DNA from: a virus
Length of the DNA: 64,000 nucleotides
Reading direction: 5' to 3' (one strand)
IMG/VR virus record: IMGVR_UViG_3300032053_014324
Coordinates: 1 to 64,000 of that record
The position numbers and the translations under genes were made by a program. Under the pieces are notes generated by a model. That model ran no database searches. It saw nothing but the letters and a program-made list of their open reading frames with translations, and was not told the origin of the DNA. Shown piece by piece: positions 3,699 through 48,058 of the stretch (within the stretch, counting starts at the first letter, position 1; each line of letters opens with the position of its first letter).

Positions 3699-3731
3699 AT
3701 AGGTATACTTAAAAAAGTATTGCGTACCTAT
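3699..3731 (+). repeat. nested inverted repeat overlapping a promoter-like element
   Basis: Outer arms ATAGGTA (3699-3705) and TACCTAT (3725-3731), inner arms ATACTT (3705-3710) and AAGTAT (3715-3720). The repeat covers the CTTAAAA box at 3708. It could be an operator for the nearby RHH protein. Confidence 0.45.
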
Positions 3732-3737
3732 ATTTTT
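3708..3737 (+). promoter_or_regulatory. phage promoter-like element, site 1
   Basis: CTTAAAA (3708-3714), 16 nt, TATTTTT (3731-3737). It lies 21 nt before the start of the first structural gene and just after a strong terminator, where a promoter is required. Confidence 0.6.
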
Positions 3738-3758
3738 AAAAATGCAAGGAGATATGAT

Positions 3759-4688
3759 ATGAACGAGACGTATTCTAACCTTGATCCTAAACAGATCGAT
3801 CTATTAAACAAAAAAATGCAGCAAGTAAGTAACGACCCAATGCTAGCAGATGACCTCCCCTCATCAAAGCTTGCTGGATTAGGTACTTCAATGTCAGCTG
3901 CTTTCACAGGATCAATTCAAACAACAGCACCACTATCGTCACCAGGAATATCAACAATTGTTTCACCAGACAGTGTTTTTGCAACGCCACAAAAAGCAGA
4001 TGCAATTAAATCAAAAATAGCTGAAATAGAACGCGAACTCGGTTCATTAACAGCAGACCCAGTATCAGAAAGTGATCTTACTTACCGAGATAGTACCGGA
4101 AACGAAACATTTTACGTCAAAAATATCTGCGGTGGTCATTATATTCTGAGTGATATGCAAATGGACAAAATACCGGCAGGAAAGTCGGTAGATTTGCTAC
4201 AAATGGCCCAACTGGAAGATTTGAAAAAATCAAGAGATCTACGAAAAGCTATTCGTGGTGTTGGATCAGAAAGGACTCTGCAACGTCTTACTGAAAGAGA
4301 ATATCTTGAAGAAAAACGAAAAGAATTGGAAAATAAGAAGAGGCTTGATATTCTTCAACAGCAGGATCAATTGAGAAGGATGAACCAACCAAACCAACAA
4401 CAGCAACAGCAGCTACTTCCCCATGAGCGCCAATTCGAACCCAATCTTGCAAATAGAGGAATTCGCCCCGCTATAGAAGCACGATTGGGTAAACTCGCCC
4501 TCAGAACAGATAGCAATGCTGACAATAGGCGACAGGCGATGTCGAGCTATGAATTCATATCCTGGCTTCAACAAGAAAGATTGACTCATGCTGAAATAGA
4601 AAATATAATGGGGCACCCTAGTGTCGTTAACGATCATGACATTAGGGCAGCTCTTCTTGAAAAGAAAAAATCCACACCACCTGAATAG
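3759..4688 (+). CDS. putative virion protein with coiled coil and Gln-rich tract
   Basis: A 309-residue protein. The N-terminal 75 residues are Ser/Thr/Pro-rich and probably flexible. A short helix at about 78-92 is followed by a compact beta segment (YVKNICGGHYIL). A long charged helix at about 155-210 ends in a run of glutamines near residue 212. The C-terminus is helical (EFISWLQQERLTHAEI). ATG 3759 is chosen because AAGGAG lies 7 nt upstream; an in-frame TTG at 3720 falls inside the promoter element. It is first in a two-gene operon with the next protein and is probably a structural or assembly component. No family recognised. Confidence 0.65.
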   Translation: MNETYSNLDPKQIDLLNKKMQQVSNDPMLADDLPSSKLAGLGTSMSAAFTGSIQTTAPLSSPGISTIVSPDSVFATPQKADAIKSKIAEIERELGSLTADPVSESDLTYRDSTGNETFYVKNICGGHYILSDMQMDKIPAGKSVDLLQMAQLEDLKKSRDLRKAIRGVGSERTLQRLTEREYLEEKRKELENKKRLDILQQQDQLRRMNQPNQQQQQQLLPHERQFEPNLANRGIRPAIEARLGKLALRTDSNADNRRQAMSSYEFISWLQQERLTHAEIENIMGHPSVVNDHDIRAALLEKKKSTPPE

Positions 4689-4697
4689 GAGACAAAA

Positions 4698-5633
4698 ATG
4701 CTTAGGTTAGTCAGTGTTTATGAACAAGCGGCGGACCATATTACATTTCAAACAGAAGAATTTACTGGCGAAGCAGTTCCATATGTTATGTTTGATACAA
4801 GTACTGGCGTTTCAATATATTCACCAAATTATACGGAGGATTATCCAGCATGGCGTGCTACTGCTATAGCAACATCCACTGGATCTGCTGTATATAGATT
4901 TACTATTAACAACAGTAATCTCTATCCAGCAACATCTAAAACTATTGCTGATTATACTACCCTCAGTCCTCGTTTGTTCAAAACAATGACTTTGCAGGAG
5001 TATACAATACTTAATGATGTTCTTATTCGATTCGATCTTGTTCGAAGGCGCTTACCAAATCCAGGTATCGGATTAGCATCAACTGATGGTATTGGTGAAG
5101 ATGGAGTAGTTGCTTTTACTGGGGGTCACGAAAAAAAGATGATGATTAGCGAAATCATGTCAATGGGTGAAGGAGCCATTCTTGAAATTAATGGAACTCC
5201 TCCAAGAACACAGTTCTGGCCAGTATATCTAACTCCAGAAAATGATAAAATATATAATCCGTATTATTCAAATGCAGGTATCCCCAATGATATGATGGAG
5301 CTTGCCAAAATGGGAACTCTTATTCGTTGCCTTATAGCTATGGGTATTCTTGAAGTGGATATCAGCTTCTCAACTTCAGATAGCGGACTACAGCTGACAT
5401 TTGACAGAGCAGCAGGTGTTAAAGGATGGCACGATGCCCTCATTACTGAATACAAAGAAATGAAAAGTTTATTCAAATGGAACCACGCCAACCACGCGGG
5501 TGTGGGGGTCGGAACTGTACCATGGTCAGCAACCGGAATTTGGGGTACTCTTATGAATAATGCTACTTCTGGCGGAACATTGGGGCTTACATCATTATTG
5601 GGCTTTACCGCCCGTGGTAATGTTCCACTATAG
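4698..5633 (+). CDS. putative virion structural protein
   Basis: A 311-residue globular protein with no signal peptide, beta-rich at the start and end and helical in the middle (about 195-265). Two STG tripeptides (DTSTGV, ATSTGS) resemble those in the fibre proteins. It follows the coiled-coil protein by 9 nt and is closed by a strong terminator. Position and composition suggest a head or neck virion component. I do not recognise the fold, and it is not obviously an HK97-type capsid protein. Confidence 0.65.
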   Translation: MLRLVSVYEQAADHITFQTEEFTGEAVPYVMFDTSTGVSIYSPNYTEDYPAWRATAIATSTGSAVYRFTINNSNLYPATSKTIADYTTLSPRLFKTMTLQEYTILNDVLIRFDLVRRRLPNPGIGLASTDGIGEDGVVAFTGGHEKKMMISEIMSMGEGAILEINGTPPRTQFWPVYLTPENDKIYNPYYSNAGIPNDMMELAKMGTLIRCLIAMGILEVDISFSTSDSGLQLTFDRAAGVKGWHDALITEYKEMKSLFKWNHANHAGVGVGTVPWSATGIWGTLMNNATSGGTLGLTSLLGFTARGNVPL

Positions 5634-5688
5634 TGTATATTTGTGTAAAGTCAGTTTGGGCGTAAGATCTCCTTTTTGATTACACTTT

Positions 5689-5716
5689 ATTCCCCCTACG
5701 TCAGGGGGAATTTTTT
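5689..5716 (+). terminator. intrinsic terminator
   Basis: ATTCCCCCT (5689-5697), ACGTC loop, AGGGGGAAT, then a T6 run. It ends the two-gene structural operon. Confidence 0.9.
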
Positions 5717-5724
5717 ACAGTTTT

Positions 5725-5754
5725 TTTAAAAAATTGATGTACTTTTTTAAACTT
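5725..5754 (+). promoter_or_regulatory. phage promoter-like element, site 2
   Basis: TTTAAAA (5725-5731), 16 nt, TAAACTT (5748-5754), placed between a terminator and the lipoprotein gene. The first base and the fifth base of the downstream box deviate from the other sites. Confidence 0.45.
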
Positions 5755-5798
5755 TTTTGCATAAAGTGGATTCTAATAAATTACGTGAGGTATTTTTA

Positions 5799-6062
5799 AT
5801 GAAAAAGTTTAATACCCTAGTAATTCTGGTGCTTGTTTTATCAATGATCGCATGCTCATCAATATCGGTAAGCAAAATACAGCCGTCAGGTGATCTGACA
5901 GGGTATATTTTGTTAAAAGATGGTAAGAAAATTTCATTTGAGAAGGCATTCGTCAGTGTTGATGGAAAACTCATCAGAATAAACAGTACCCTTGTTCGCC
6001 AGACAGTTCTTATGGAAAATGTGGCGAGCGTGTGCTTAGGAAAAGATAAGACTAAAAAATAG
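5799..6062 (+). CDS. small lipoprotein (moron-like)
   Basis: An 87-residue protein. The signal sequence starts MKKFNTLVILVLVL and ends in a lipobox-like SMIAC, giving a lipidated Cys at about residue 19. The mature part (about 68 residues) is beta-rich with GYILLKDGKKISF and resembles small outer-membrane lipoproteins. ATG 5799 is chosen for the signal peptide and the upstream GTGAGG; a longer frame upstream is not credible. Terminators on both sides and its own promoter-like element make it a one-gene cassette inside structural genes. Superinfection exclusion or another surface-changing role is the usual guess for such genes; that is inference. Confidence 0.75.
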   Translation: MKKFNTLVILVLVLSMIACSSISVSKIQPSGDLTGYILLKDGKKISFEKAFVSVDGKLIRINSTLVRQTVLMENVASVCLGKDKTKK

Positions 6063-6081
6063 ATAAGACTAAAAAATAGAT
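6045..6081 (+). repeat. short tandem repeat
   Basis: AGATAAGACTAAAAAAT occurs twice in tandem across the lipoprotein stop codon, so the second copy lies just after the gene. Probably a recent slippage duplication. Confidence 0.6.
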
Positions 6082-6112
6082 AAAATCAATGAAACTATCC
6101 CATTCGCAGAAA

Positions 6113-6136
6113 GGCCCCTGGAAACAGGGGTTTTTT
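6113..6136 (+). terminator. intrinsic terminator
   Basis: CCCCTG, GAAA tetraloop, CAGGGG, T6 run. It ends the lipoprotein cassette. Confidence 0.9.
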
Positions 6137-6148
6137 ATTATAGAAATA

Positions 6149-6178
6149 CTTAAAGTTAAATGAATATTTTATATATTT
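6149..6178 (+). promoter_or_regulatory. phage promoter-like element, site 3
   Basis: CTTAAAG (6149-6155), 16 nt, TATATTT (6172-6178), 39 nt before the next start codon and directly after a terminator. Confidence 0.6.
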
Positions 6179-6217
6179 CTATCTTAGAAACCAGACACTA
6201 TATTCAGGAGGACATCA

Positions 6218-6421
6218 ATGGCTTACTCAGGCAACATTAAATTCATATTTGAAACTAATAACGAAGCTCTCGTAGAAGAAACACCATCAGGCGCTACTTC
6301 GTATGATAGGCACGTTAAAGTTAATGCTGATTTCTCTGCAAAAGTTCGGGGAGATGTTATCAGCTATAACTACAATGCTCGTAGCAATTTTAACGATGGT
6401 CACGATATAACCATTGTATAA
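6218..6421 (+). CDS. small hypothetical protein
   Basis: A 67-residue protein with a very good ribosome site (AGGAGG, 6 nt spacing) and an upstream promoter-like element. It is rich in Asn, Asp and Ser with alternating hydrophobic residues, suggesting a small beta structure. It heads a long operon to about 9906. A high level of translation suggests an abundant virion part such as a decoration protein, but nothing in the sequence proves it. Confidence 0.6.
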   Translation: MAYSGNIKFIFETNNEALVEETPSGATSYDRHVKVNADFSAKVRGDVISYNYNARSNFNDGHDITIV

Positions 6422-6436
6422 CATTTTTTGGGTAGC

Positions 6437-7447
6437 ATGATGGCAGACAAAAAATTGGAAAAGATGAAACAAGAGGAATATATGTCTAATGTAGATAGCA
6501 CACTTGATTGGAATGAGTTCCTAAAAAAACCAACAAATCGAGTTAAAAAAATGGCTGCACCAGCATTAGATATTCCCTCTATAGAAAACAAAAAACCTGG
6601 TGAAGCAGGATCACCTCCAGTTCCTACTGGAGGAGTACCTGTACTACCAACAGCAGACGCGCTTCCTCCATTACCAGGCGGCCCTACGGACGCGCTAGCA
6701 CCGCCCTTACCGGAACCACCTAAGCCGAAAAAACCAAAAGAAAAAGATCTTTCATCGAAAGAAAAAGAAGAAGTTCTGTCATCTCTTGATGAGCTGCGTG
6801 AAACAATAAAAACTCTTAAATCTGAACTCGAAATGTCCGTAATGAAAGATGAAATTATCGAAAAGATAAAGAGTCATTACAAAGGCTTAGAAGAAGAACT
6901 AGATTCCTTAAAAAGAAAAGAGATACCAGAACGAAAGTATTTTGACACTGAGGGAGCTTACAGAGATCGTTTGTATGGAATGGCTACAAACATGTTGGAT
7001 GAATTTCTTCCTGACTTATTCGAAGAAATACCGGAATACAATTTCACAGCTACTCAGGTCAGTCGATTGTTTGAAGATGGAACAGTTGCCGATGCTCTTA
7101 TTCTACTCATGGCAACAGTTCCGCGAGAAGGAATGAAGTATGATTTTAAAATCGAAGTACCTGTTCTCAATGGACTAATGCAGTATCCGATGTATATCCA
7201 ACGTGGTCAGAAAATAATCCCCCTCACAAAAGCCGAGATTCAACGAGAGCTCAATTCAATGTCGTATCGAAAGCTTGATATTGAAGAGCCCTTAAAAAAA
7301 GATAATTTATTCAATAATATCGGGGAGAACATTCATCGTAGACCGGACAGCCAAAAATGGTATGAGACTGCCCCTAATACATATAATCAGACAGCAATAC
7401 CACCTGATCACATGCAGCAAGTCCAAAGAGGAAAAAGCATAAAATGA
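6437..7447 (+). CDS. proline-rich and coiled-coil virion or scaffold-like protein
   Basis: A 336-residue protein. Residues about 40-100 are Pro/Lys-rich and low complexity (LPPLPGG, PPLPEPPKPKKPK). A highly charged helix follows at about 105-165, then a compact alpha/beta domain (about 170-275) and a polar tail. This order (flexible linker, coiled coil, globular part) is common in assembly or scaffold-type proteins. The start is uncertain: ATG 6437 or 6440, or 6482 with AAGAGGA upstream. The stop overlaps the next start (ATGA). No family identified. Confidence 0.65.
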   Translation: MMADKKLEKMKQEEYMSNVDSTLDWNEFLKKPTNRVKKMAAPALDIPSIENKKPGEAGSPPVPTGGVPVLPTADALPPLPGGPTDALAPPLPEPPKPKKPKEKDLSSKEKEEVLSSLDELRETIKTLKSELEMSVMKDEIIEKIKSHYKGLEEELDSLKRKEIPERKYFDTEGAYRDRLYGMATNMLDEFLPDLFEEIPEYNFTATQVSRLFEDGTVADALILLMATVPREGMKYDFKIEVPVLNGLMQYPMYIQRGQKIIPLTKAEIQRELNSMSYRKLDIEEPLKKDNLFNNIGENIHRRPDSQKWYETAPNTYNQTAIPPDHMQQVQRGKSIK

Positions 7448-7782
7448 AAAAAGACAATGTCTATATGACACGAGATCTCGCCTCGGCTACATACATTGCC
7501 TATAATGGAATTAAGTTTGCAAAAAACTACGATAAGGCCAATCGATCGTGGATTTTTCAAGATCCAGATGTGTGTGAAGACTTAGATTTGAAGCTACGAA
7601 ATGGGGAAGCTTCTGTCGAAGTTATTAAGTATGAATCGGTGAGACGAAATTTGCTCGGGATGGTTAAAATGACGGGCTCAGATGGTGGAGATGATTTACT
7701 CAGTATGAATGGATATACAAATGGGTCAACAAACGGAAGAAGAGATAAGTCAAATCGAGATACTTCTAGGGATAACCAGTAA
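7444..7782 (+). CDS. DUF5659-like small protein
   Basis: A 112-residue protein. The first 75 residues follow the pattern of a small phage domain I associate with DUF5659: YMTRDLASATYIAYNGI, then a beta strand ending WIFQD, then a helix and a final stretch with R-N-L-L. The last 30 residues are polar and disordered (NGSTNGRRDKSNRDTSRDN). It is translationally coupled to the upstream gene by ATGA. Function unknown; the domain name is from memory and should be treated as tentative. Confidence 0.6.
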   Translation: MKKDNVYMTRDLASATYIAYNGIKFAKNYDKANRSWIFQDPDVCEDLDLKLRNGEASVEVIKYESVRRNLLGMVKMTGSDGGDDLLSMNGYTNGSTNGRRDKSNRDTSRDNQ

Positions 7783-7915
7783 ACTAGATGACGTTAACCG
7801 TCGATTAGGAATAATTGACCACAAATTCTCTAGTTTTATTAATCAGATAAGACCAAAAGACATATCTCCTGCAGCAAAGGTAGAGGAATGGACAGACCGC
7901 TTGAAAAGAAGATAA
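7709..7915 (+). CDS. small coiled-coil protein overlapping its neighbours
   Basis: A 68-residue frame, +2 relative to the upstream gene and overlapping it by 74 nt. Residues about 16-48 form a heptad-like helix (LLGITSKLDDVNRRLGII). The overlapped part lies in the upstream gene's disordered tail, which makes a real overlap believable. A start at 7721 (ATG) is equally possible. It also overlaps the next small RHH gene by 28 nt. Confidence 0.5.
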   Translation: MDIQMGQQTEEEISQIEILLGITSKLDDVNRRLGIIDHKFSSFINQIRPKDISPAAKVEEWTDRLKRR

Positions 7916-8055
7916 AAAACATATTTGTACCTCTCGCATATACATCCTATGAACTATTTAAGCATAAATGCTATAGCGAAGGGTACTCTATGAAGAAAGT
8001 TATAGAGATTCTTGTTGAGCAGTATACAAATGATAAACTTGTTGTTAAAAAATAA
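7888..8055 (+). CDS. short ribbon-helix-helix-like protein
   Basis: A 55-residue frame starting at ATG 7888, with AAAGG seven bases upstream, and ending at TAA 8053-8055. After a basic start (MDRPLEKKIKN) the pattern IFVPLAYTSYELFKHKC, turn EGYS, then MKKVIEILVEQY fits a ribbon-helix-helix strand and two helices. It fills the otherwise empty space between 7915 and 8060. It is probably a DNA-binding dimer or, alternatively, a small protein of the same fold used in assembly. Confidence 0.55.
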   Translation: MDRPLEKKIKNIFVPLAYTSYELFKHKCYSEGYSMKKVIEILVEQYTNDKLVVKK

Positions 8056-8069
8056 TAAGGAGTAATACT

Positions 8070-8099
8070 ATGATAGATTATGGAAGACAATTGAAATAG
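8070..8099 (+). CDS. nine-codon minicistron (MIDYGRQLK)
   Basis: An ATG with an excellent AAGGAG site (8057-8062) opens a nine-codon frame that stops seven bases before the next gene's ATG at 8106. The next gene lacks a good ribosome site of its own, so the minicistron may load ribosomes that re-initiate. It could also be a chance arrangement. Confidence 0.35.
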   Translation: MIDYGRQLK

Positions 8100-8105
8100 T
8101 AAATT

Positions 8106-8840
8106 ATGGATAAAAAATCAGACATGGGAGTATCTGTTTCAGGTGCACCTGATTCTTTAGCAGGAAATCTTAATTATACACTGCCTCAGAAATTTCAAGA
8201 TCCCGGCACAGATATATTTAAAACAGTAGCTCCCTTTGACGTAGTGCATCGAACTCCCGAAAGAGTAGAGTTGCAATATAATGATGCGCTGAAGCCAACG
8301 GTGCTTCCGACAGATTCAAAATATGATAATAACAATAAATCAAATACCGTCGATTCAGGAAATAAACAGGTTGGTGATACTGATTTAGCAGCTAAAGCCA
8401 ATAGATCATCTATGGGATCATGGAGTATTGCTATGAATGAACAACAATTTTCGAAAGTAAGTAACATTGATTCTCTTATAAAAACTGCAGAAGACGATTC
8501 TATTAAAAAGAAAATAATGGAATGCTTCGCTAAAAATGAAAACCCACCTGATGCAAAGATACACAAGATGGCAGAAAAACTTGGTATCGAACCTGATAAA
8601 ATGGAAGAGGCTATTTATAAACTTCTATCTTCTTTTCTATCTCAAGGGAAATCAAAAGATTATACTGGTGAGTATGATCCTGAAGAATTGAGAATGGGTA
8701 TTGAAGTTGAGATGGAGCATACGAATGACAGAGATATTGCAGAACGAATTGCACGGGATCACCTCGCAGAATTCAAGAACTATTACACTGCTCTTAAAAA
8801 GATGGAAGAAGGATTAAAGAATCAATCATTTGAGAAATGA
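8106..8840 (+). CDS. virion-associated protein with SIDELIK motif and DUF5661-like C-terminus
   Basis: A 244-residue protein. The N-terminal 110 residues are polar and low complexity. Residues about 118-128 carry NIDSLIKTAED, one copy of a motif shared by seven proteins here. A helical segment (about 130-180) has a winged-helix-like feel (KMAEKLGIEPDKMEEAIYKLL). The C-terminal 50 residues (YDPEELRMGIEVEMEHT, then RIARDHLAEF and YY) match a domain I know as DUF5661, frequent in phage structural regions. Role unknown; a head-associated protein is the best guess. Confidence 0.6.
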   Translation: MDKKSDMGVSVSGAPDSLAGNLNYTLPQKFQDPGTDIFKTVAPFDVVHRTPERVELQYNDALKPTVLPTDSKYDNNNKSNTVDSGNKQVGDTDLAAKANRSSMGSWSIAMNEQQFSKVSNIDSLIKTAEDDSIKKKIMECFAKNENPPDAKIHKMAEKLGIEPDKMEEAIYKLLSSFLSQGKSKDYTGEYDPEELRMGIEVEMEHTNDRDIAERIARDHLAEFKNYYTALKKMEEGLKNQSFEK

Positions 8841-8841
8841 A

Positions 8842-9123
8842 ATGAATACCGGAATGGTTTTTATGGATAAAGGGAGTTCCTTTAATAAAATCAGTTTTAT
8901 TGTGCATATGAAAGGGCATAAGAACTCATCTGGAGAGATCGCTCCGTATGTAATAAAATCGCACGAAACCAATAAAATTCTATCTTCTCATAAAACTCGT
9001 GGTGAAGCAGAAAAACATTTAAAACAAATGCATGCGCACTCAGGTTCGTTTATAGGTGTAAGAAATATAGATGAACTTATTTCAGGAGGTACATATGAGC
9101 AATGTAACCTTTACCGAAGCTGA
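8842..9123 (+). CDS. small protein ending in a SIDELIK-type motif
   Basis: A 93-residue protein. Its core reads YVIKSHETNKILSSHKT, then EAEKHLKQMH, a recurrent small alpha/beta unit in phage proteins. Near the C-terminus is FIGVRNIDELISGG, a copy of the shared motif. The start is uncertain: ATG 8842 follows the upstream TGA by one base, and ATG 8854 is an alternative. It overlaps the next gene by 29 nt. Function unknown. Confidence 0.55.
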   Translation: MNTGMVFMDKGSSFNKISFIVHMKGHKNSSGEIAPYVIKSHETNKILSSHKTRGEAEKHLKQMHAHSGSFIGVRNIDELISGGTYEQCNLYRS

Positions 9124-9349
9124 TTTTTCTAGCATGGACAAGAAATCAAAAGAGATGCTCGGATGGACATTTAAAGAGAAATTTGGTATGAGCATTAAAG
9201 AAATGGTTGCTGATCCGATTAAAGGACAAGATGCGATAATAGCTGCAAAAAGAAAGGCTGGCTTTGTCGATAGTATACAGATTAAGAAGATAATGGATTT
9301 TTTATCTGAGCCAGATTGGGAACAGACATTGAAGGATAAGCTTGCATAA
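9095..9349 (+). CDS. small hypothetical helical protein
   Basis: An 84-residue protein. ATG 9095 is fixed by a strong AGGAGG (9084-9089) that lies inside the end of the previous gene. The sequence is helical and charged (KSKEMLGWTFKEKFG, IKKIMDFLSEPDWEQTL). The stop overlaps the next start (TAATG). No recognised domain. Confidence 0.6.
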   Translation: MSNVTFTEADFSSMDKKSKEMLGWTFKEKFGMSIKEMVADPIKGQDAIIAAKRKAGFVDSIQIKKIMDFLSEPDWEQTLKDKLA

Positions 9350-9906: not shown

Positions 9907-9948
9907 TCTAAAAACAATCAAAAATCATTCCTTTTACAACATAACTCC

Positions 9949-9978
9949 CTTAAAAACAAATGCGTTATCATTATATTT
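9949..9978 (+). promoter_or_regulatory. phage promoter-like element, site 4
   Basis: CTTAAAA (9949-9955), 16 nt, TATATTT (9972-9978). It lies in a gap of 116 nt after the HAD gene. Its position makes an ATG start at 9960 unlikely for the next gene. Confidence 0.6.
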
Positions 9979-10022
9979 CAAGGATAGCACGTAGTATAAT
10001 TATGCTGTATAAGGATAAACCA

Positions 10023-10370: not shown

Positions 10371-10371
10371 T

Positions 10372-10638: not shown

Positions 10639-10645
10639 GGTATTT

Positions 10646-14463: not shown

Positions 14464-14493
14464 CTTAAAATCCAATTGGCTATTCATATCTTT
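14464..14493 (+). promoter_or_regulatory. phage promoter-like element, site 5
   Basis: CTTAAAA (14464-14470), 16 nt, TATCTTT (14487-14493), 43 nt before the sheath start in a 115-nt gap. Confidence 0.6.
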
Positions 14494-14536: not shown

Positions 14537-15928
14537 ATGGCTGGATTAGGATATCGCTTACCAGGGACTAGAATCGAGGAGCAGACCCTCCCGCAATCAG
14601 TTAATATATCATCTTCACAACGGATACCTTGTTTCATAGGAGTTGCCAGTGACTATATAAAAGTTACGTATGAGCAGGTTGTTCGAAGCTCTACTGGTTT
14701 AGTAGACAGTTTATTATACACTGCGGCAGGAATTCATGAAATTACGCAAGTTGGGTCTCAAAAAGGTTTGAATGACTATGTTCAAGGAACTCATTTTAAT
14801 CTTGTAAATAATCAAATCGTCTGGGTATCAGCTGGAATTGTTACAATAGGAGCAACTTACTTTGTAACATATTCCTATGACCGTCCATATGATCCAATTG
14901 ATATTACTGATGTGACTAAAAATGATTATCGTTACAAAGAATTTACGAATTTTGAAGATGTTGTGACTGATCTAGGAGATGACATTCCTGAACACCCGCT
15001 TGTTATGATAGCTAAAATAGCTCTTCGGTATTACAATGTTCCGATGATAGCAACCGTACAAGTTCGGACCGGATCGTCCTCAGATTATGCAGTTGCGCTT
15101 GAGCTTATAAAATACCGTGACGTTCAAACAATTGTACCCCTTACTACGAATTCTACAGTAAGAACATTAGTTATTAGTCATGTGACTGAAAGAAGTTTAC
15201 CTGATAATATGAGAATGAGGATGGCTTGGTTTGGAACAGCAGCAGGAACTCCGATAGGTTCTGAGTCAGATCCAACGTCTATTCGGGGAATAGCTGCGAG
15301 TGTTAAAAATGAATTGTGTATGGTTGTCAATGCAACACGAGCTAAATATTATTACAATGATCCTGTTACAAAAGAAGAGCTGTATACAGTAGTCGATGGG
15401 TCGTTTATAGCAGCCGCACTTGCCGCATATCGTGATTCCTTCGTGTACCCATCGACTACTTTACTCAATAGAACTGTAGCCGGTCTTGAATTATTCGATG
15501 AAGATTATGATGATTACTATTCAGAGTATCAGCTTACTTTGGCTGGTGGAAGTAGTGTATTTCTTGTTGAGTCTCTTGGTGGAGTAATGCGTGTTGTTGA
15601 CGATTTAACAACTGATAATTCAACTGTTGAACGTAACAATATCAATGTTATCACTGCCAAGCACTACATTGCTAAAGATGTTGCTATTCAAATGAATAGA
15701 ACCTTTAAGGGAAGACTTATTACAGATGCTGGAAGTTATACTAATACAGTATCTTCCTATCTATCGTCGATGTTTGCGGCTTATAAAAAAGCTTCTGTTA
15801 TTGAAAGTATAGGAACCATAAAAGTAAATATAAGCCCAGAAAGACGTGATACCATAGAGATACATTATGAGTATACAGCGGTGTACACGAATAAGTATAT
15901 AGAAGGAACTTACTCACTTCTCGTGTAA
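14537..15928 (+). CDS. contractile tail sheath protein
   Basis: A 463-residue protein. The N-terminus has the sheath hallmark P-G-T-R-I-E-E (residues 9-15). A beta region follows, then the central alpha/beta domain (about 150-330), and a C-terminal domain (ITAKHYIAKDVAIQMNRTF, then IKVNISPERRDTIEIHYEY) as in Phage_sheath families, with the final strand used for subunit linkage. It polymerises round the tube and contracts on infection. It has its own promoter-like element, a strong AAGGAG site and a terminator, as expected for a very abundant protein. Confidence 0.9.
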   Translation: MAGLGYRLPGTRIEEQTLPQSVNISSSQRIPCFIGVASDYIKVTYEQVVRSSTGLVDSLLYTAAGIHEITQVGSQKGLNDYVQGTHFNLVNNQIVWVSAGIVTIGATYFVTYSYDRPYDPIDITDVTKNDYRYKEFTNFEDVVTDLGDDIPEHPLVMIAKIALRYYNVPMIATVQVRTGSSSDYAVALELIKYRDVQTIVPLTTNSTVRTLVISHVTERSLPDNMRMRMAWFGTAAGTPIGSESDPTSIRGIAASVKNELCMVVNATRAKYYYNDPVTKEELYTVVDGSFIAAALAAYRDSFVYPSTTLLNRTVAGLELFDEDYDDYYSEYQLTLAGGSSVFLVESLGGVMRVVDDLTTDNSTVERNNINVITAKHYIAKDVAIQMNRTFKGRLITDAGSYTNTVSSYLSSMFAAYKKASVIESIGTIKVNISPERRDTIEIHYEYTAVYTNKYIEGTYSLLV

Positions 15929-15989: not shown

Positions 15990-16013
15990 ATTTTACAGAT
16001 GAGAGTAAATTAT

Positions 16014-17831
16014 ATGAAAGAAAAAATGTGTAGGCATTGTGGCACAAAGGAAAATCTACGAACTAATAAGAATGGTGTCGTTTATAACTGCTGCAAACAT
16101 TGCTATGAAACTATTGAAGTGCCCGATCAAATTAGAAAAGCGAATGAGAGTATTGTTGCGAAGTATGGTGTTTCTGATTTAGGAGAGCTTCGACAAAAAA
16201 GATCAAAGGATAATCCTCCAAAACAAAAGGAGAAAAAAATCGTAACATGCAAGTATTGTGGAACAACAGAAAATCTTGTTGTAACAACAACTAAAAAGAG
16301 AACTATTTCTTTTCATACCTGTAAAGAACACTGGGAGCAGTATCAAAAAGATAAGTATGAAGTAAGAAAAAAATCTAACAAAGAAAAATTTGGAGTTGAG
16401 CAGCCTCTACAGAATAATGACATTAAAAGTAAATTCAAACAAACTATAAATAGTAAGTCTCTTGTAGAAAAAGAGAGCATTAATAAAAAAAGAGAACAAA
16501 CTAATTTAGATAAGTTTGGAGTGACAAATCCCAATAAGTTAAAAGAATTTGCAGATAAAAGAAAAAACACCCTATTAGAAAAATACAGTGTATCGAATCC
16601 TATGGAATCCGCTGAATTTAAAGAAAGGCAGAAAAAGACATTATTAAAAAATTTTGGAGTAGATAATCCTCTCAAATCTAAAGAGATAAGGGATAGAGTA
16701 AAAAAGACTAATTTAGAAAAAAGAGGAGTAGAGTACCCATCACAATCTTTAGAAGTTCAAAATAAAGTTAGAAAAGCAAAAAGAATTGTGTATTGGGACA
16801 TATTTGTAATTCTTCTTAAACAAAAGAATACCCTACCTTTGTTTACAAAAGAAGAATACATTGATGCTACCGGCGAGCTTACATATAAATGTTTAAAATG
16901 TAACTCTGTTTTTAAATCAGAAGGAACAGCTCCACAAAGAATTACCTGCTCTTGCTATCATAGAAAGTCTTTGTATGAGTATGAAATAGAAGATTGGCTT
17001 AGATCTTTAAATATAGAAAATATAAAACCAAACGAAAGACTTTTCGAAAAAGGAGAAGGTAATTTTGAAATAGATGTGTACTTACCAAACTATAATCTAG
17101 GCATAGATTTCAATGGTCTTTACTGGCATTCCAATGTATATCAAAGAAGCACGTATCATAGAGAAAAATATATATTCTTTAAAAAGAAGAACATATCCTT
17201 TATTCAAATTTTTGAAAGTGACTGGTTGTCTAATAAGGATGTAGTGAAATCTATTATTCTAAATAAACTCAGCTCCTCTGAAAAAATACAAGCAAGAAAA
17301 TGTACCGTATCCGACGTTCCTGAAAAAGATTATATGCGCTTTTTGTCAGAGCACCATCTACAGGGGTATGCCTCAGCAAGCATAAAGCTGGGATTATTTT
17401 TTAATAATGAATTAGTGTTTGTTATGTCGTTCGGAAAACCTCGTTTTAGTGAAAAGAAAGGATTTGAAATCATTAGATCCTGTTCTAAAAAAGGATACCT
17501 AATAATAGGTGGGTTTGATAAATTACTTTCTTATTTTGAAAATACCTATGCGCCAGAAAAATTAATCAGTTTTATAGATATTCGATACTTTAATGGAAAT
17601 TCTTATAAGGCATCTGGATTTATTTTAGAACACCATACTGATCCAAACTACTATTACTTTGATCCAAAAAACCCAACAGCCCTATTTAGTAGAATAGCCT
17701 TCCAAAAGCATAAACTCGCTGGAAAACTCAAAGTGTTTGATCCCGCTCTTTCTGAATCTGAGAATATGTATCTCAATGGGTATCTAAAAATATATGATGC
17801 TGGAAACCTAAAGATGGTTAAAAACTATTAA
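16014..17831 (+). CDS. free-standing homing endonuclease with zinc fingers and VSR-like nuclease domain
   Basis: A 605-residue protein. Two Cys-rich modules come first (MCRHCGT...CCKHC; TCKYCGT...TCKEH). Five NUMOD-like DNA-binding repeats of the type K-F-G-V-x-N-P then run over about residues 123-250 (KFGVEQP, KFGVTNP, KYSVSNP, NFGVDNP, KRGVEYP), mostly spaced 22-23 residues. A third Cys cluster precedes a VSR/EDxHD-like nuclease core (YEIEDWL, FEIDVYLP, IGIDFNGLYWHS, then IQIFESDW). A C-terminal half with AGKL resembles phage-associated partners of such nucleases. It lies between sheath and tube genes, interrupting no frame. Role: self-spreading by cutting alleles that lack it. Confidence 0.8.
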   Translation: MKEKMCRHCGTKENLRTNKNGVVYNCCKHCYETIEVPDQIRKANESIVAKYGVSDLGELRQKRSKDNPPKQKEKKIVTCKYCGTTENLVVTTTKKRTISFHTCKEHWEQYQKDKYEVRKKSNKEKFGVEQPLQNNDIKSKFKQTINSKSLVEKESINKKREQTNLDKFGVTNPNKLKEFADKRKNTLLEKYSVSNPMESAEFKERQKKTLLKNFGVDNPLKSKEIRDRVKKTNLEKRGVEYPSQSLEVQNKVRKAKRIVYWDIFVILLKQKNTLPLFTKEEYIDATGELTYKCLKCNSVFKSEGTAPQRITCSCYHRKSLYEYEIEDWLRSLNIENIKPNERLFEKGEGNFEIDVYLPNYNLGIDFNGLYWHSNVYQRSTYHREKYIFFKKKNISFIQIFESDWLSNKDVVKSIILNKLSSSEKIQARKCTVSDVPEKDYMRFLSEHHLQGYASASIKLGLFFNNELVFVMSFGKPRFSEKKGFEIIRSCSKKGYLIIGGFDKLLSYFENTYAPEKLISFIDIRYFNGNSYKASGFILEHHTDPNYYYFDPKNPTALFSRIAFQKHKLAGKLKVFDPALSESENMYLNGYLKIYDAGNLKMVKNY

Positions 17832-17836: not shown

Positions 17837-17874
17837 CTTAAAAAAGTCTGCTTCCTTTGTAAACTTAGTCTTTG
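17837..17874 (+). repeat. direct repeat, copy A (contains promoter-like site 6)
   Basis: This segment matches 17986-18023 at 29 of 38 positions. It holds CTTAAAA (17837-17843), 16 nt, TAAACTT (17860-17866). No protein gene follows before a terminator at 17932. It may be a duplicate of the tube promoter created when the endonuclease gene was inserted. Confidence 0.55.
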
Positions 17875-17931: not shown

Positions 17932-17961
17932 CCCCCTGTATGATATTATACAGGGGTTTTA
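17932..17961 (+). terminator. intrinsic terminator
   Basis: CCCCTGTAT and ATACAGGGG arms (17933-17941, 17948-17956), then TTTTATTTT. It lies between the endonuclease and the tube gene. Confidence 0.9.
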
Positions 17962-17985: not shown

Positions 17986-18023
17986 CTTAAAAAAATCTGT
18001 CATCTTTGTAAATTTACCTTTTG
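17986..18023 (+). promoter_or_regulatory. phage promoter-like element, site 7 (direct repeat copy B)
   Basis: CTTAAAA (17986-17992), 16 nt, TAAATTT (18009-18015), 42 nt before the tube start, directly after a terminator. Confidence 0.6.
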
Positions 18024-30541: not shown

Positions 30542-30571
30542 CTTAAAATTACCGGGATATATGCTATATTT
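30542..30571 (+). promoter_or_regulatory. phage promoter-like element, site 8
   Basis: CTTAAAA (30542-30548), 16 nt, TATATTT (30565-30571) followed by G. It lies in the 53-nt gap before the gp25-like gene, only 18 nt from its ATG. Confidence 0.6.
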
Positions 30572-31047: not shown

Positions 31048-32511
31048 ATGATTTCTAAATCAAGTAGCGATGTCAGAAGTGAAATAATAGAATCATTACT
31101 CGGACGACTTCCAAACTTAGATCTCACAGAAGGCTCGCCAGAACGAGATATGTTTGTAGAAGCTCCCTTAGAAGGTCAACTTAACTCCTTGTGGGATAGA
31201 ATTATCTATGCAGCAAAATTACATGCACCACATGTATACCAATCAGATATAGAAGATACTGATTTAATAAATTATATGACTAATTACGGGATTAGTCAAT
31301 CTTCTGCAACATATGCATCCGGCGTTGTTACATTTTATGCAAATGCTCAACCTACTCAAGATGTAGTAATACCATCTGGAACTATAGTTAAAACGCAAGA
31401 AGTAACCCCGGTTGAATTTTCTGTGCAAGGCGATTATACTATGTATTTTAGCATAGCTTCTTCTTATTTTAATGCAAATACACAGAGATATGAAATAAAT
31501 TGTGCGGTGAAGGCTCTCGCAGCAGGATCATCTAATAAAGCTGGTGCAAATACTATAGTAGGTATGGCGACAGCAATAAGTGGTATTTCAGGAGTTACCA
31601 ATGCCAATCCAATTACTGGAGGGCAAGATGAAGAATCTGTAACAGACGCTCTTGCTCGAGTTATTCAAACATTCCAAGGAAGAGGATTAGGACCAACCCA
31701 GGGTCTTATCAATTTTATAAAACCTTATGTTGAGGCTGTAAATGTTGTTGGCGCAAATGACCCTGAAATGGTTAGAGATGAGGGTCTCGGAGGCGCAATA
31801 GATTTTTATGTCATTGGAGAAAGTCTTATAACAGCAGTAGATACAGTAACAGTAACATCGACAGGATTATCTACTGGAATAAATGTTTCATATACATCAA
31901 CAGGGATGATACTTTTAAACCAGCCAGTTAACATTCTATTATCAGTTATTTCTAATGGTATTGTTATCTATCCAACATATTATACCTTAACTCTTGATAC
32001 TGGAATTTTATCAAAATCTACACGCGCATCTGATATGGTTACAGTTACCTCTACAGGTATTTCTAACGGATTTTGGTTCAAGGCAAATGATATTGTTGAG
32101 GTGGCATATCAATACAATAGCTTGCTTGCAACAATAGAAGATGATTTGAATTCAGTTGAAAATCATTATCAAAACAGAGATTATTTACTTCGAGAAATGA
32201 CTGCAGTTACAATAACTGTATACATGCGAATAAAAGAGACAGCTGGGCAAGATTTTGATGCGGTCGCATCTGATGTAGAAACAACTGTATCTAGCTTTAT
32301 AAATTCAATCATGAATGGTGGATCACTTGAACTAGCCGATGTCGTTGGAGCGGCTAAAGCTATCAATACTGTTGATAATATAGATCTTACTACAGTCTCA
32401 ATGACCCCCACGGGGGGTGGTACAAAGACAGCTCAGGGCGATATTCTATTTAATAAGAATGAATATCCTGTTGCGGGTGCCATAACAATAGAACGTTGGA
32501 CCAACGAATAA
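31048..32511 (+). CDS. baseplate J/gp6-like wedge protein
   Basis: A 487-residue protein. The N-terminus has the J-like form LDLTEGSPERDMFVEAPLEG followed by a helix. VVIPSGTIVKTQEVTPVEF, then the GGQDEESVTDALARVIQTF and GLGPTQGLINFI segments are hallmark J/gp6 phrases. The C-terminal domain (VTITVYMRIKE, then EIADVVGA-like SLELADVVGAAKAI) closes the iris-like ring. A beta insertion at about 268-360 contains four STG tripeptides (TVTSTGLSTGINV, SYTSTGM, TVTSTGIS) not usual for this family. Confidence 0.85.
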   Translation: MISKSSSDVRSEIIESLLGRLPNLDLTEGSPERDMFVEAPLEGQLNSLWDRIIYAAKLHAPHVYQSDIEDTDLINYMTNYGISQSSATYASGVVTFYANAQPTQDVVIPSGTIVKTQEVTPVEFSVQGDYTMYFSIASSYFNANTQRYEINCAVKALAAGSSNKAGANTIVGMATAISGISGVTNANPITGGQDEESVTDALARVIQTFQGRGLGPTQGLINFIKPYVEAVNVVGANDPEMVRDEGLGGAIDFYVIGESLITAVDTVTVTSTGLSTGINVSYTSTGMILLNQPVNILLSVISNGIVIYPTYYTLTLDTGILSKSTRASDMVTVTSTGISNGFWFKANDIVEVAYQYNSLLATIEDDLNSVENHYQNRDYLLREMTAVTITVYMRIKETAGQDFDAVASDVETTVSSFINSIMNGGSLELADVVGAAKAINTVDNIDLTTVSMTPTGGGTKTAQGDILFNKNEYPVAGAITIERWTNE

Positions 32512-41619: not shown

Positions 41620-41623
41620 AAAT

Positions 41624-43323: not shown

Positions 43324-43347
43324 TAAATTATATACGAGTAAAAATAT

Positions 43348-45102
43348 ATGTGTGGAATAGCAGGAATATTATACAAAAAGTCTGGAATGCTTAATACGCA
43401 GCAAGTATTGACTCAGTTTCAGAAAGTACTAAAACACCGTGGGCCAGATGATGAAGGAATTCATATTGATTCAACCTTTGGTTGCGCCCATGTACGTTTA
43501 TCTATTGTTGATATTTCTGGCGGAAAGCAACCAATGTACACAGATGACTCCAAAAAAATAGGTATTGTGTACAATGGAGAAATATATAATTATAAAGAAT
43601 TAAGAGATACTCTTATACAAAAAGGATGTCGGTTCAAAACTACTTCTGATACCGAAGTAGTTTTACGGTTATACGAAACTTTTGGAAAAGATTCATTTGA
43701 AATGCTTAATGGCATGTTCGCTTTTTGTATTTGGGATAATCATGCTGATGCTATATATCTTGTAAGAGATCATATGGGGATAAAACCACTCTATATATAT
43801 GAAGATAATAATGTACTTATATTTTCTTCAGAAATTAAAGCTATTCTCAGCGTTCCAAACATTGATCTTTCTCTAGATGTTTATGGATTTCAAGATTACT
43901 TAATGTTTCGGTATATGCATGCTCCCTGTACGTTGTTTAAGAACATCTATCGTTTGACTGCGGGAACTTATATAGAATTCAAAGATATGCGTGCAGCAGC
44001 TCATGTATATTGGGATGTAGTATACAATCCTGATGAAACAACAACTATAGAGAATTTCAAAGAAGAAATACTATATACACTTGATACAATTATACAATCT
44101 CAACTTATGGGTGAAGTTCCTATTGGAATGCTTCTGAGCGGCGGTGTAGATTCAAGTATTATATCATACTTCATTCATAAAAACAATTCCAACCTCAAAA
44201 CTTTTAATATTGGGTACCCTGAAGTAAATGAATTTGAATTTTCCCGTGAAGTTGCTAACCAACTCAGATTAGATCATATTGAAGTCGTAACAACACCTGA
44301 TTCGTTCGTTAAGGATTTCCACAAAATAGCTATGAATCTTGATGAGCCTCTAGCTGATCCCGCGAGCTTTCCCTTATTTGTTTTGTGTGAAGAATTAAAA
44401 AAACATGTTACTGTTGTTCTATCTGGTGAAGGGGGAGACGAACTATTTGCAGGATATCCACAATATGGTAGAACCATGAAAACCCAGGGAGAGGACAAAT
44501 GGAAATTTGCATTATTCTTATCAAATAGCCATTACTATCTTAATTCTCATAAATTTATGCTAGATACGTCTCATGTAATGCAAGCACAAGAAAAATATAA
44601 AGAATACTTTGATAGAAACGGTGTGTTGAATGGAATGATGGCCTACGATCTTAAAACGTGGGTTCCTGAAGATTTGATGATGAAGACTGATAAAATTATG
44701 ATGGCGCATTCCCTAGAAGGCAGATTTCCTTTTCTAGATAAACGAATAATAGAGTTAGCTCATAGAATACCTGAAAAGTACAAATTTAATGGTGTAACAA
44801 CAAAATGGATTTTAAAAGAAGCCATTAAAGGAAAAATTCCAGAAAAGATAATTAATCGTCCAAAAATGGGATTTACTGTGCCAGTTGCAACAATGCTTGA
44901 ACGAATGAAGCCGATAATATTAGAAACGTACTATGTGGCTAAATCAACTGAGCTAAGAAATGTTTTGAATATAGAAGAACTGCTTAATAATGCAGTAAGA
45001 TACTATTCAAAGGATGCAACTATTTCTTCAACAAATGTGTGGACTCATTTTATATTGTTATACTGGTTCACGCGAGTATTTCCTGAATTTAAGAGGTTAT
45101 AA
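43348..45102 (+). CDS. asnB: asparagine synthetase (glutamine-hydrolysing) family
   Basis: A 584-residue protein with catalytic Cys2 (MCGIAGI), RGPDDEG, VYNGEIYNY of the N-terminal amidotransferase domain, and the ATP pyrophosphatase loop LLSGGVDSS (about 261-269), SGEGGDELFAGYPQY in the C-terminal synthetase domain. In polysaccharide clusters such proteins often amidate uronic acids or unknown acceptors rather than aspartate, so a glycan-tailoring role is likely. The name denotes the family. The stop overlaps the next start (TAATG). Confidence 0.85.
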   Translation: MCGIAGILYKKSGMLNTQQVLTQFQKVLKHRGPDDEGIHIDSTFGCAHVRLSIVDISGGKQPMYTDDSKKIGIVYNGEIYNYKELRDTLIQKGCRFKTTSDTEVVLRLYETFGKDSFEMLNGMFAFCIWDNHADAIYLVRDHMGIKPLYIYEDNNVLIFSSEIKAILSVPNIDLSLDVYGFQDYLMFRYMHAPCTLFKNIYRLTAGTYIEFKDMRAAAHVYWDVVYNPDETTTIENFKEEILYTLDTIIQSQLMGEVPIGMLLSGGVDSSIISYFIHKNNSNLKTFNIGYPEVNEFEFSREVANQLRLDHIEVVTTPDSFVKDFHKIAMNLDEPLADPASFPLFVLCEELKKHVTVVLSGEGGDELFAGYPQYGRTMKTQGEDKWKFALFLSNSHYYLNSHKFMLDTSHVMQAQEKYKEYFDRNGVLNGMMAYDLKTWVPEDLMMKTDKIMMAHSLEGRFPFLDKRIIELAHRIPEKYKFNGVTTKWILKEAIKGKIPEKIINRPKMGFTVPVATMLERMKPIILETYYVAKSTELRNVLNIEELLNNAVRYYSKDATISSTNVWTHFILLYWFTRVFPEFKRL

Positions 45103-45839
45103 TGAATACACAAAATATATTATTTACCGGAGGATCTGGACTTCTTGGTAAAGAAATGAAAAAAGTAATACCAGATGCACTATTTCCATCCTCAAAAGAT
45201 TTTGATGTCACTGATGTTGACGGAATGAATACTACACTTGCAGTAATAAATCAAGTTGGAGACCCTATAAAAACAATGGTTCATGCAGCAGCATTCGTAT
45301 CCCCTCCAAAAATTGAACAAGATCCTATGAAAGCATTAGCAGTTAATATTATTGGAACATCTAATATTGTTACGGTATGCCAGCAGTACAATATTCGCCT
45401 TGTTTATATATCTACTGATTATGTTTTTAGCGGGGAAAAGGGAAACTATGGTGAAGAAGATCCCATATATCCAGTAAATAAATATGCTTGGAGTAAGCTT
45501 GGTGGGGAGTGTGCAGTTAGATTATATGATAAGCACGTCATAATCAGACTTTCTTTTGGACCTACTGAATTTCCCTATGAAGGAGCGTTCGTTGATCAAT
45601 TGACTTCTCGAGAGCCTGTAAATGAAATAGCTCAGAAAATAGCAAAAATAGCAAAAAGCGATTTTCTCGGAATAATGCATATTGGTTCTAAAGGAAGAAC
45701 CGTGTATGATTATGCGAAATATGTCAGTCCAGAAAAACCAATAAAAGAAATATCTATAAAAGATATGAAAACAAAAGTTCCAAGAGATACTTCTCTCAAT
45801 ACCAATAAATTTGATACATTCATAGCAGGAGGTTGGTAA
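45102..45839 (+). CDS. RmlD-like sugar-nucleotide reductase (SDR)
   Basis: A 245-residue protein, shorter than typical RmlD (about 280-300). NAD(P) site FTGGSGLLG, the RmlD-like YISTDYVFSG, and catalytic Tyr128-x3-Lys132 (YAWSK). It likely reduces a 4-keto group of a dTDP-6-deoxy sugar, working after the RmlC-like epimerase 9 kb upstream. The C-terminal substrate part is reduced, so function could differ. Its stop overlaps the next start by one base. Confidence 0.75.
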   Translation: MNTQNILFTGGSGLLGKEMKKVIPDALFPSSKDFDVTDVDGMNTTLAVINQVGDPIKTMVHAAAFVSPPKIEQDPMKALAVNIIGTSNIVTVCQQYNIRLVYISTDYVFSGEKGNYGEEDPIYPVNKYAWSKLGGECAVRLYDKHVIIRLSFGPTEFPYEGAFVDQLTSREPVNEIAQKIAKIAKSDFLGIMHIGSKGRTVYDYAKYVSPEKPIKEISIKDMKTKVPRDTSLNTNKFDTFIAGGW

Positions 45840-46018
45840 TGATTGACGATTACTACTGTGAACATTGTAAAAAGATATTTGAATACAAAAAACCCTATGG
45901 TGAGGAAAAATTTCCAAATCACCCACAGTGTCCTGTGTGTAATACAAGAAAAACACGCAGAAAAATATCATTCAACGCTATTATTCCAGATGATTTTAAA
46001 TCTGTAAATAGTAGATAA
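45839..46018 (+). CDS. small zinc-ribbon protein (FmdB-like)
   Basis: A 59-residue protein. YYCEHCKKIFEY, then HPQCPVCNTRKT: two CxxC knuckles 22 residues apart as in FmdB/CxxC-SSSS regulatory-type zinc ribbons. GGAGG precedes the ATG. It may regulate or be a structural zinc module; such small ribbons occur in phages and in sugar clusters next to AsnB-like proteins. Confidence 0.65.
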   Translation: MIDDYYCEHCKKIFEYKKPYGEEKFPNHPQCPVCNTRKTRRKISFNAIIPDDFKSVNSR

Positions 46019-46039
46019 AAACAAAACAAGGAGTATTTT

Positions 46040-47023
46040 ATGAAACTCATGGTTTTTGGCGGCGCAGGATACGTTGGAAGTGCCTTGGTTCCTGTATTAT
46101 TGGATCACGGGTATGATGTAACTGTTATTGATCTACTGTGGTTTGGAAATCGCCTTCCAAAAGAAGTCAATGTTATCCAAAAAGATTTATTTTCTTGTAC
46201 CGAGAAAGACTTAGAAGGATTTGATCAATGCATTTTCCTCGGAGGTTTATCAAATGATCCGATGAGTGAATTTGACCCAGTTAGAAGTTTTATTTACAAT
46301 GCCTCGCTTCCGTCATATCTCGCATACATATCCCGACAAGCAGGAGTTAAGAGATTTATTTATGCATCGTCTTGTTCCGTGTACGGCTATACGGTTGATA
46401 AATTGTTCGATGAGACATCGAAAATTTCCTGCTTTTATCCGTATGGAATCGGAAAGCTTCAAGGAGAGAAAGGAGTCATGCATCTTCAGGAGGATGACTT
46501 TTCAGTAATTTGCCTCAGAAAAGGAACCGTCTCAGGTTACAGCCCCCGACTTCGCTTAGATCTCATCGTAAATACCATGGTTCTCAATGCACTTACCAAA
46601 GGAGTGGTTACGATTAGTAATCCAGCTATCTGGAGGCCAATCTTATCAATGCGGGACTGTGTCTCAGCCTATCTCAGAAGTATCCAAGCAAATTATTCCG
46701 TTTCTGGCGTTTTTAACATCGCTTTTGATAATTTTACTGTTGGAGAAGTTGGCTATACTGTAAAAGATGTCATTGAAAAGAGATATCCAGACAGACACAT
46801 AAAACTTGATGTTAAGAATGTTCAAGATGTAAGAAATTACAAAGTAACCATCGAAAAAGCACGAACAACTCTGGGGTTTCATCCAAGATACTCTGTTGCT
46901 GACATTGTTACTGAGTTGCTAGACAAGTGGGATACAATTCTTCCGCTAATCGACAAAGACGAATCCTATAACATTCGTATATGCAAGAAACTTTTCTCTG
47001 ATAAAGAAATTCGGATAGCGTAG
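46040..47023 (+). CDS. NAD-dependent sugar epimerase/dehydratase (extended SDR)
   Basis: A 327-residue protein. GGAGYVGSAL is the NAD loop, YASSCSVYG gives the Ser/Thr, and Tyr135-x3-Lys139 (YGIGK) is catalytic. RPILSMRDCVSAYL is typical of sugar-nucleotide epimerases. It may be a GDP/dTDP-sugar epimerase; it is not a clear RmlB because the specific DE pair after the TGxD part is not evident. G+C is raised (27 of 60 at 46441-46500) like the first island gene. Confidence 0.75.
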   Translation: MKLMVFGGAGYVGSALVPVLLDHGYDVTVIDLLWFGNRLPKEVNVIQKDLFSCTEKDLEGFDQCIFLGGLSNDPMSEFDPVRSFIYNASLPSYLAYISRQAGVKRFIYASSCSVYGYTVDKLFDETSKISCFYPYGIGKLQGEKGVMHLQEDDFSVICLRKGTVSGYSPRLRLDLIVNTMVLNALTKGVVTISNPAIWRPILSMRDCVSAYLRSIQANYSVSGVFNIAFDNFTVGEVGYTVKDVIEKRYPDRHIKLDVKNVQDVRNYKVTIEKARTTLGFHPRYSVADIVTELLDKWDTILPLIDKDESYNIRICKKLFSDKEIRIA

Positions 47024-47033
47024 GTATATTGAA

Positions 47034-48023
47034 ATGCTCACTAAAACAGTAAGTAACCCTGAAATTGCAGAGCGTCTGAAGAAAGATCCCTTTATCACTC
47101 TGTGGAAAAATAATTATGCAGAAAATCAAGCAAAGGGATACTTGTCTACCGAGAAGTCCCGTCCGCTACTGTTTATAAAAAATACCAGACCGTATGCAAA
47201 TTTACCAGTAGTCATTGTTGCTGCTGGACCTTCCTTGGATAAGAACATTCATCTCTTAAAAGAATATCAAAATAATTGCATCATTCTTTGTGCGGATGTC
47301 ATCCTCTTTAAATTACTACAGAACGAGATCAAACCGGATTTCGTTGTTAATATTGATCCGCATGAGTCTCTCAAAAAATTCTGGAATAATATTGATACTA
47401 CAGAATTCACTCTGGCCTGTCCGACAACAACCAACCCTCGAACACTGGAAGCATGGAAAGGGCATGTCTATTTTTTCAATCAATCTGATCTTGATAAATC
47501 TCCAAAAGGAGAGGCGCTTAAGAAACTTATAAAACCAACAGAAGGGTGGGGTGTCCTTTCCAACAAATTCTTTGTTGGTGCGACAATGTTTCAGTTTTCT
47601 ACCTATCTCAGTCCATCAGCTGTAATCTTAATTGGGCACGATTTTTGCTACACCGACGATAAGGCCTTCTGTGATGGTTTCCTTGATATAAAAATTCATC
47701 ATGACGAGCATCCCATTGGATCAGAAGAACATAGATATATGATCGAAAAACTTAAAGCAGAAGAGATACATAGAGATGTCTCAATTAATCTTTCACCAAC
47801 GGAGACCGTATGGACTTCTCAAACGCTACATCTTTATAAGAACACATTAGTAGGATTAATCAATACAGCTAAGTTGAAAGTTATTAATGCAACTGAAGGC
47901 GGAATTCTGACAGAAATAGAAAAAATGTCATTTAAAGATAGCCTCGAAAAATTCTGTCAAAATCCTATTACTAAGTTCGATACGTTCTCTATGCAAAAAA
48001 GAAAACACAAAAAGAGACGATAA
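47034..48023 (+). CDS. Maf/DUF115-like glycosyltransferase (MptE-like domain)
   Basis: A 329-residue protein. Core VVIVAAGPSLDKNIHLLKEY, IILCADVILFKLLQNEIKPD, FVVNIDPHE and later VILIGHDFCY match the 6-hydroxymethylpterin pyrophosphokinase MptE-like / Maf_flag10 domain. Maf proteins transfer nonulosonic acids to Ser/Thr of flagellins. It has a C-terminal basic tail (KRKHKKRR). As the final island gene, just before giant fibre genes, it is a candidate for attaching sugar to a virion protein. Family fairly sure; acceptor is inference. Confidence 0.75.
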   Translation: MLTKTVSNPEIAERLKKDPFITLWKNNYAENQAKGYLSTEKSRPLLFIKNTRPYANLPVVIVAAGPSLDKNIHLLKEYQNNCIILCADVILFKLLQNEIKPDFVVNIDPHESLKKFWNNIDTTEFTLACPTTTNPRTLEAWKGHVYFFNQSDLDKSPKGEALKKLIKPTEGWGVLSNKFFVGATMFQFSTYLSPSAVILIGHDFCYTDDKAFCDGFLDIKIHHDEHPIGSEEHRYMIEKLKAEEIHRDVSINLSPTETVWTSQTLHLYKNTLVGLINTAKLKVINATEGGILTEIEKMSFKDSLEKFCQNPITKFDTFSMQKRKHKKRR

Positions 48024-48028
48024 TCAAC

Positions 48029-48058
48029 CTTAAAAATAGCACCTATCAAGTTATTTTT
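48029..48058 (+). promoter_or_regulatory. phage promoter-like element, site 9
   Basis: CTTAAAA (48029-48035), 16 nt, TATTTTT (48052-48058) followed by G. It lies in the gap between the sugar island and the fibre genes, 59 nt before the next ATG. Confidence 0.6.

Follow-up and report, generated by a model that had tools for sequence, protein, structure and literature searches.

A recurrent two-box element, a candidate phage sigma promoter, before structural and packaging genes of large contractile-tail phages

A fixed-spacing element in the gaps of a structural module

The window, i.e., the whole 64,000-nucleotide stretch of viral DNA analyzed here, comprises almost all of a 64,197-base IMG/VR record. 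On its + strand it encodes a tail sheath protein (14537..15928; PHROG 279, E 4e-16), a homing endonuclease whose ORF lies between the sheath gene and the next virion gene (15999..17831; PHROG 3339, E 3e-116) and a gpJ-like baseplate wedge protein (31048..32511; PHROG 6, E 2e-28), which identifies it as the structural module of a contractile-tail phage. No close DNA match to the first 25 kb of the window was found in the phage collection searched, where sheath matches are at most 29% identical, and no sheath relatives were found in bacterial genomes. Between the baseplate and tail-fibre-type genes lies a cargo block (32618-47023) with glycosyltransferase, aminotransferase, asparagine synthetase and sugar-nucleotide-type genes, most of which have no homologue in two of the related phages described below (G003 and G004). 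The closest match of the asparagine synthetase comes from a Nitrospirota MAG (51%), the rest being at most 41% identical among the matches listed, a weak hint of a Nitrospirota host.

The first-pass annotation had listed nine copies of a pair of boxes, CTTAAAA-N16-TAnnYTT, in the gaps of this module. All nine lie where they had been placed, with 23 nt between the starts of the two boxes, but only seven are exact. Exact copies precede a gene with a 322-aa ORF (element 3708..3737, with TATTTTT as second box; likely ATG 3759), a gene with its ATG at 10023 (9949..9978), the tail sheath gene at 14537 (14464..14493), the gene at 18058 (17986..18015), a 148-aa gene at 30590 that immediately precedes the wedge gene at 31048 (30542..30571) and the gene at 48118 (48029..48058); the seventh exact copy, 17837..17866, lies in the upstream copy of a 45-nt direct repeat. 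The two one-mismatch copies carry the first box TTTAAAA at 5725..5754, 5' of a gene with its ATG at 5799, and CTTAAAG at 6149..6178, 5' of a 67-aa gene at 6218. An additional exact match, missing from the earlier list, is located at 50047..50076 inside ORF 48118-50316, where it falls in frame 0 and encodes LKKTSSLIIL. Two supposed relaxed copies at 1480 and 32527 were dropped, the second box being misplaced at both.

The comparison with shuffled sequence proposed alongside that list sets the window clearly above expectation: eight exact matches on both strands together versus 0.14 +/- 0.38 in 100 dinucleotide shuffles, none of which reached 8. With up to one mismatch allowed, the window holds 11 matches versus 3.3 +/- 2.1 (100 shuffles, none reaching 11). 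All of these window matches lie on the + strand, as do nearly all window genes, and seven of the eight exact copies occupy short gaps immediately 5' of gene starts. Likewise, the looser pattern CTTAAA-N17-TANNNTT occurs seven times on the + strand of intergenic segments and never on the - strand, compared with 0.06 in mononucleotide shuffles. When CTTAAA...TANNNTT pairs in the window were counted at spacings from 16 to 31, the spacing of 23 was the single outlier, with nine occurrences and no more than four at any other.

The second box of the window elements ends before the Shine-Dalgarno site, 18 to 59 nt 5' of the likely ATGs. The earlier observation that several elements follow a terminator was borne out by rho-independent-type hairpins on the + strand at 5689..5711, just upstream of element 5725, and, with a T tail, at 17933..17956, between elements 17837 and 17986; further hairpins upstream of elements were seen by eye at ~6115-6130 and ~3636-3659. 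Judged by its arrangement, an element with a preceding hairpin is the layout expected of operon starts. These features bear on the idea that the element is a regulator binding site or an RNA-level signal and not a promoter, which we regard as highly improbable: the element is directional, has -35/-10 geometry and a fixed spacing, stands just before the Shine-Dalgarno site and in places after terminators, and co-occurs with phage sigma factors (see below).

The element in related phages and the genes behind it

Relatives were drawn from IMG/VR, namely G001 (38 kb), G002 (48 kb), G003 (253 kb) and G004 (218 kb), the window being G000; G006 (179 kb) and a short contig, L076, were reached through the baseplate gene. 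The matrix scan suggested in the first-pass annotation converged on the same element in G003 and G004. Iteration led to ACCTTAAA-N15-CTATYATTTAA in G003, with ~20 intergenic sites well apart from background, and to CTTAAAA-N15-TTATNWTTTAA in G004, with ~20 sites in sharp separation from background. Because only intergenic sites were retained in every round for these matrices, spacing counts and a dyad search constitute the less biased evidence. The motif-free dyad search in G003 and G004 ranked CTTA-N18-CTAT and CTTA-N18-TTAT first or close to first, alongside the Shine-Dalgarno/ATG pair, and when box pairs around gene starts were counted with their orientation, the maximum fell at a spacing of 23 in G000, G001, G003 and G004. 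In G006 the peak lies at 22 (nine sites, plus four at 23), so that the boxes are mostly one base closer, and in G002, a close relative with a 64% identical sheath, these oriented counts gave no clear peak. The element is absent from the distant relative Rctr197k.

The first box is nearly invariant in the window, G003 and G004; the second differs between relatives. Since the second box has drifted, a matrix trained on G003 and G004 alone detects sites in the window only weakly: its counts above threshold there exceed the shuffle mean, not the shuffle maximum. Most upstream regions lack a site; in G003 one is present in about 20 of 211. A search for a second promoter dyad in regions without the motif found none, only hairpin-Shine-Dalgarno pairs. 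In one such region (L017, G003 100-130 kb), ~9 genes carry a GC-rich hairpin just 5' of a AGGAGGTA Shine-Dalgarno site, perhaps reflecting RNA processing or translation control.

Sites recur before orthologous genes whose proteins are about 33-73% identical. The sheath gene is preceded by a site in four of five phages (G000, G001, G003 and G004). Five of the contigs examined (G000, G001, G003, G004 and L076) include the 148-aa gene ahead of the baseplate gene, and in each of them that gene has a site. The 322-aa gene has sites in G000, G003 (233535) and G004 (95112), and the 67-aa gene in G000 and G004 (125787). G003 and G004 share sites before the terminase gene, a 774/677-aa gene and the upstream neighbour of the latter. 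Other annotated genes behind G003 sites encode an SLT-domain protein, an NAD-dependent DNA ligase, a pol-beta-type protein, a metallophosphoesterase/DNA-transfer-like protein and a PfkB kinase. The prominence of packaging and virion genes suggests a mainly late class, a timing deduced from gene content, and the sites before replication or metabolic genes, namely those for the DNA ligase, the pol-beta-type protein and PfkB, indicate that the class may not be purely late.

Two further features were observed in these genomes. The terminase large subunit genes of G003 (L050) and G004 (L067) contain a Hint/LAGLIDADG intein-like insertion. Additionally, ARAGORN called a tRNA with an amber (cta) anticodon in G004 (L045, 3400-3473); TAG is an ordinary stop in many ORFs, so recoding is not evident.

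Matches inside genes were also considered as conserved internal promoters, a reading that was rejected. All of them, i.e., 50047 and 53428 in the window, 52404 and 55124 in G003, and 168340 and 171048 in G004, fall in frame 0 and, 53428 apart, encode LK..-type peptides common to homologues, for which reason they were treated as coding. In particular, peptides similar to that encoded at 50047 occur at the same place in relatives, and this exact match is probably a coding coincidence.

The copies at 17837 and 17986 stand in tandem within the 45-nt direct repeat (76% identity) and flank the terminator 3' of the endonuclease ORF, giving a promoter-terminator-promoter arrangement (17830-18023). Element 17837 is followed by this terminator and not by a clear gene of its own, and transcription from it would end after roughly 90 nt, giving a short RNA. 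In relatives, gene 18058 lies close behind the sheath gene without a site of its own, and in the window it is separated from the sheath gene by ORF 15999-17831. The arrival of the endonuclease ORF seems to have gone together with a dedicated promoter for the gene behind it.

Phage sigma factors as candidate readers

The first-pass annotation had proposed a phage-specific and possibly late promoter, with either a phage factor or an alternative host sigma to recognize it. Enrichment, strand specificity, intergenic location, fixed spacing and recurrence before orthologous genes in divergent relatives all support this proposal, and the existence of a promoter class, as read from these patterns, is well supported. 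A phage sigma gene, which had been named as something to look for, was found in three relatives (G003, G004 and G006), each encoding a sigma-70-family protein. Of the features that mark a phage-sigma promoter class, a recurrent fixed-spacing element is present, and a sigma gene is present in G003, G004 and G006.

Two sigma-like proteins, homologous to each other, occur in G003 as well as in G004: sigma A, 58% identical between these phages, and its paralogue sigma B, 32% identical. In both, the sigma A gene has a 480-486-aa gene on one side and, on the other, the terminase gene that is preceded by the element; its G006 orthologue adjoins a helicase-like gene. Sigma A matches PHROG sigma families, and its match to Pfam Sigma70_r2 lies below the cut-off for G003 and above it for G004. 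A profile of the four sigma proteins matched SigH (1.3e-6) and FliA (6e-4) in the PDB. The AlphaFold model of sigma A is of moderate confidence (pLDDT 69), and in a fold search with it the PDB matches were sigma factors among the matches listed, none below E 0.001; phage sigmas were among the viral fold matches. Two other proteins resemble sigma-70 region 2 and have no BLAST match to sigma A or B: a 148-aa protein of G002 over the Pfam cut-off (L036, 1444-1890) and a weaker case in G003 (L038, 143088-143741).

The element is probably a -35/-10 promoter that is specific to the phage, used mainly late and read by the host polymerase with phage sigma A. In the simplest mechanism, the host core RNA polymerase would carry the phage-encoded, sigma-70-family sigma A, region 4 of which would bind CTTAAA and region 2 of which would melt the TA-rich second box; the predicted start would lie a few bases downstream of the second box, just before the strong Shine-Dalgarno site. 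By this proposal, transcription of the later operons in this phage group, the structural and packaging ones among them, would begin at the element. Counted against this explanation are the lack of a clear spacing peak in G002, the presence of two sigma paralogues and the fact that no sigma gene was found within the 64-kb window, whose phage would carry sigma A outside this fragment.

Which paralogue reads the promoters is a question raised by sigma B, which is homologous to sigma A and conserved in G003 and G004, so that it, or both sigmas, could do so instead. We consider this unlikely: sigma B is far less conserved than sigma A while the first box is constant, and in G003 its gene belongs to a series of + genes that follows a site, which is where a target would be expected. 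Furthermore, a search of G006 with the profile of the four sigma proteins found a single sigma, the sigma A orthologue, and the element is present there. We infer that sigma A is the reader, because G006 has the element with only sigma A found and because sigma A and the CTTAAA box are both the conserved members. A two-sigma cascade is a more tentative and rather doubtful extension, in which sigma A would read CTTAAA / TAnnNTT, sigma B, expressed from that regulon, would read a further class, and the spacer and second box would have drifted with sigma A (23 nt; 22 in G006; perhaps 25-26 in G002). If true, it would provide a natural series of sigma-promoter co-evolution within the group.

Alternatively, the reader could be a host sigma, whether a housekeeping factor whose consensus is unusual or an alternative factor, for instance of the sigma-28 type. 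Early in infection most phages rely on host promoters, and the -35 box of sigma-28 also contains TAAA. This reading is nonetheless very unlikely, given that most upstream regions lack a site and packaging and virion genes stand out among the targets, that the second box differs between relatives and that relatives encode their own sigmas. As had been noted from the sites themselves, their boxes differ from the host sigma-70 consensus, and a housekeeping promoter of the form TTGACA-N16-18-TATAAT was rejected: such sites occur at shuffle level in window positions 1-19500 (78 versus 72.9 +/- 10), and sigma-70-like sites show at most a slight intergenic excess in G003 and G004.

On the favored reading, this large virus of bacteria sets its structural and packaging genes apart by a transcription start signal of its own, which it has in common with related viruses that also encode a sigma factor, the type of protein by which such signals are read. 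For a group of large uncultured contractile-tail phages with only remote named relatives in the collection searched, this offers a promoter code together with a candidate for its reader, and sequence by itself could then show which of their operons belong to the regulon. The relatives also provide a ready-made panel in which joint changes of a phage sigma and its promoters can be followed.

Relation to known promoter systems

Several known systems were compared with the element and set aside. Promoters of the phiKZ/AR9 type, read by a phage multi-subunit polymerase, were rejected since no RNA polymerase beta/beta' homologues were detected in G003 and G004, where controls were positive. Bacteroidota promoters consist of TTG near -33 and TAnnTTTG near -7. 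The second box in the window, TAnn(T)TT, resembles the latter, but the window element lacks a conserved G after TTT, the base after YTT being variable, and its first box is CTTAAAA. The earlier argument that strong Shine-Dalgarno sites speak against a Bacteroidota host holds, such sites being found before genes, and this promoter type was rejected as well. The T4 late promoter, TATAAATA, is read by gp55 and has no -35 box. Both systems place a TA-rich box before late genes; the T4 type was rejected because here the first box is nearly invariant and is the more constant of the two. In the Bacillus phage SPO1, middle and late promoters are read with gp28 and gp33-gp34, respectively, through the boxes AGGAGA/TTTnTTT and CGTTAGA/GATATT. 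The likeness lies in a two-box promoter and in a phage sigma replacing the host sigma, the latter being predicted here, whereas the boxes differ.

In phiEco32 and Salmonella phage 7-11, phage sigma promoters consist of a short intergenic element present in low copy before middle and late genes, which was found through intergenic sequence comparison and matched to the phage sigma (PMC4331800). The element described here is likewise short, conserved, intergenic and of low copy, and the sigma likeness is one of shared family; in contrast, the 7-11 element has a TGATGT core, and phiEco32 and 7-11 are enterobacterial phages of smaller size that possess an anti-sigma gene. By this analogy, phage-encoded-sigma promoters are already known in kind, to which this putative member and its phage group are added; the existence of such systems makes the finding informative and not surprising. 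Group 2 jumbo phages encode sigma factors without an RNA polymerase and were proposed to recruit the host polymerase (PMC7824862). G003 and G004 resemble them in gene content, being large and sigma-encoding with no RNA polymerase detected. That survey lists genes (PMC7824862), whereas here a matching promoter element was identified.
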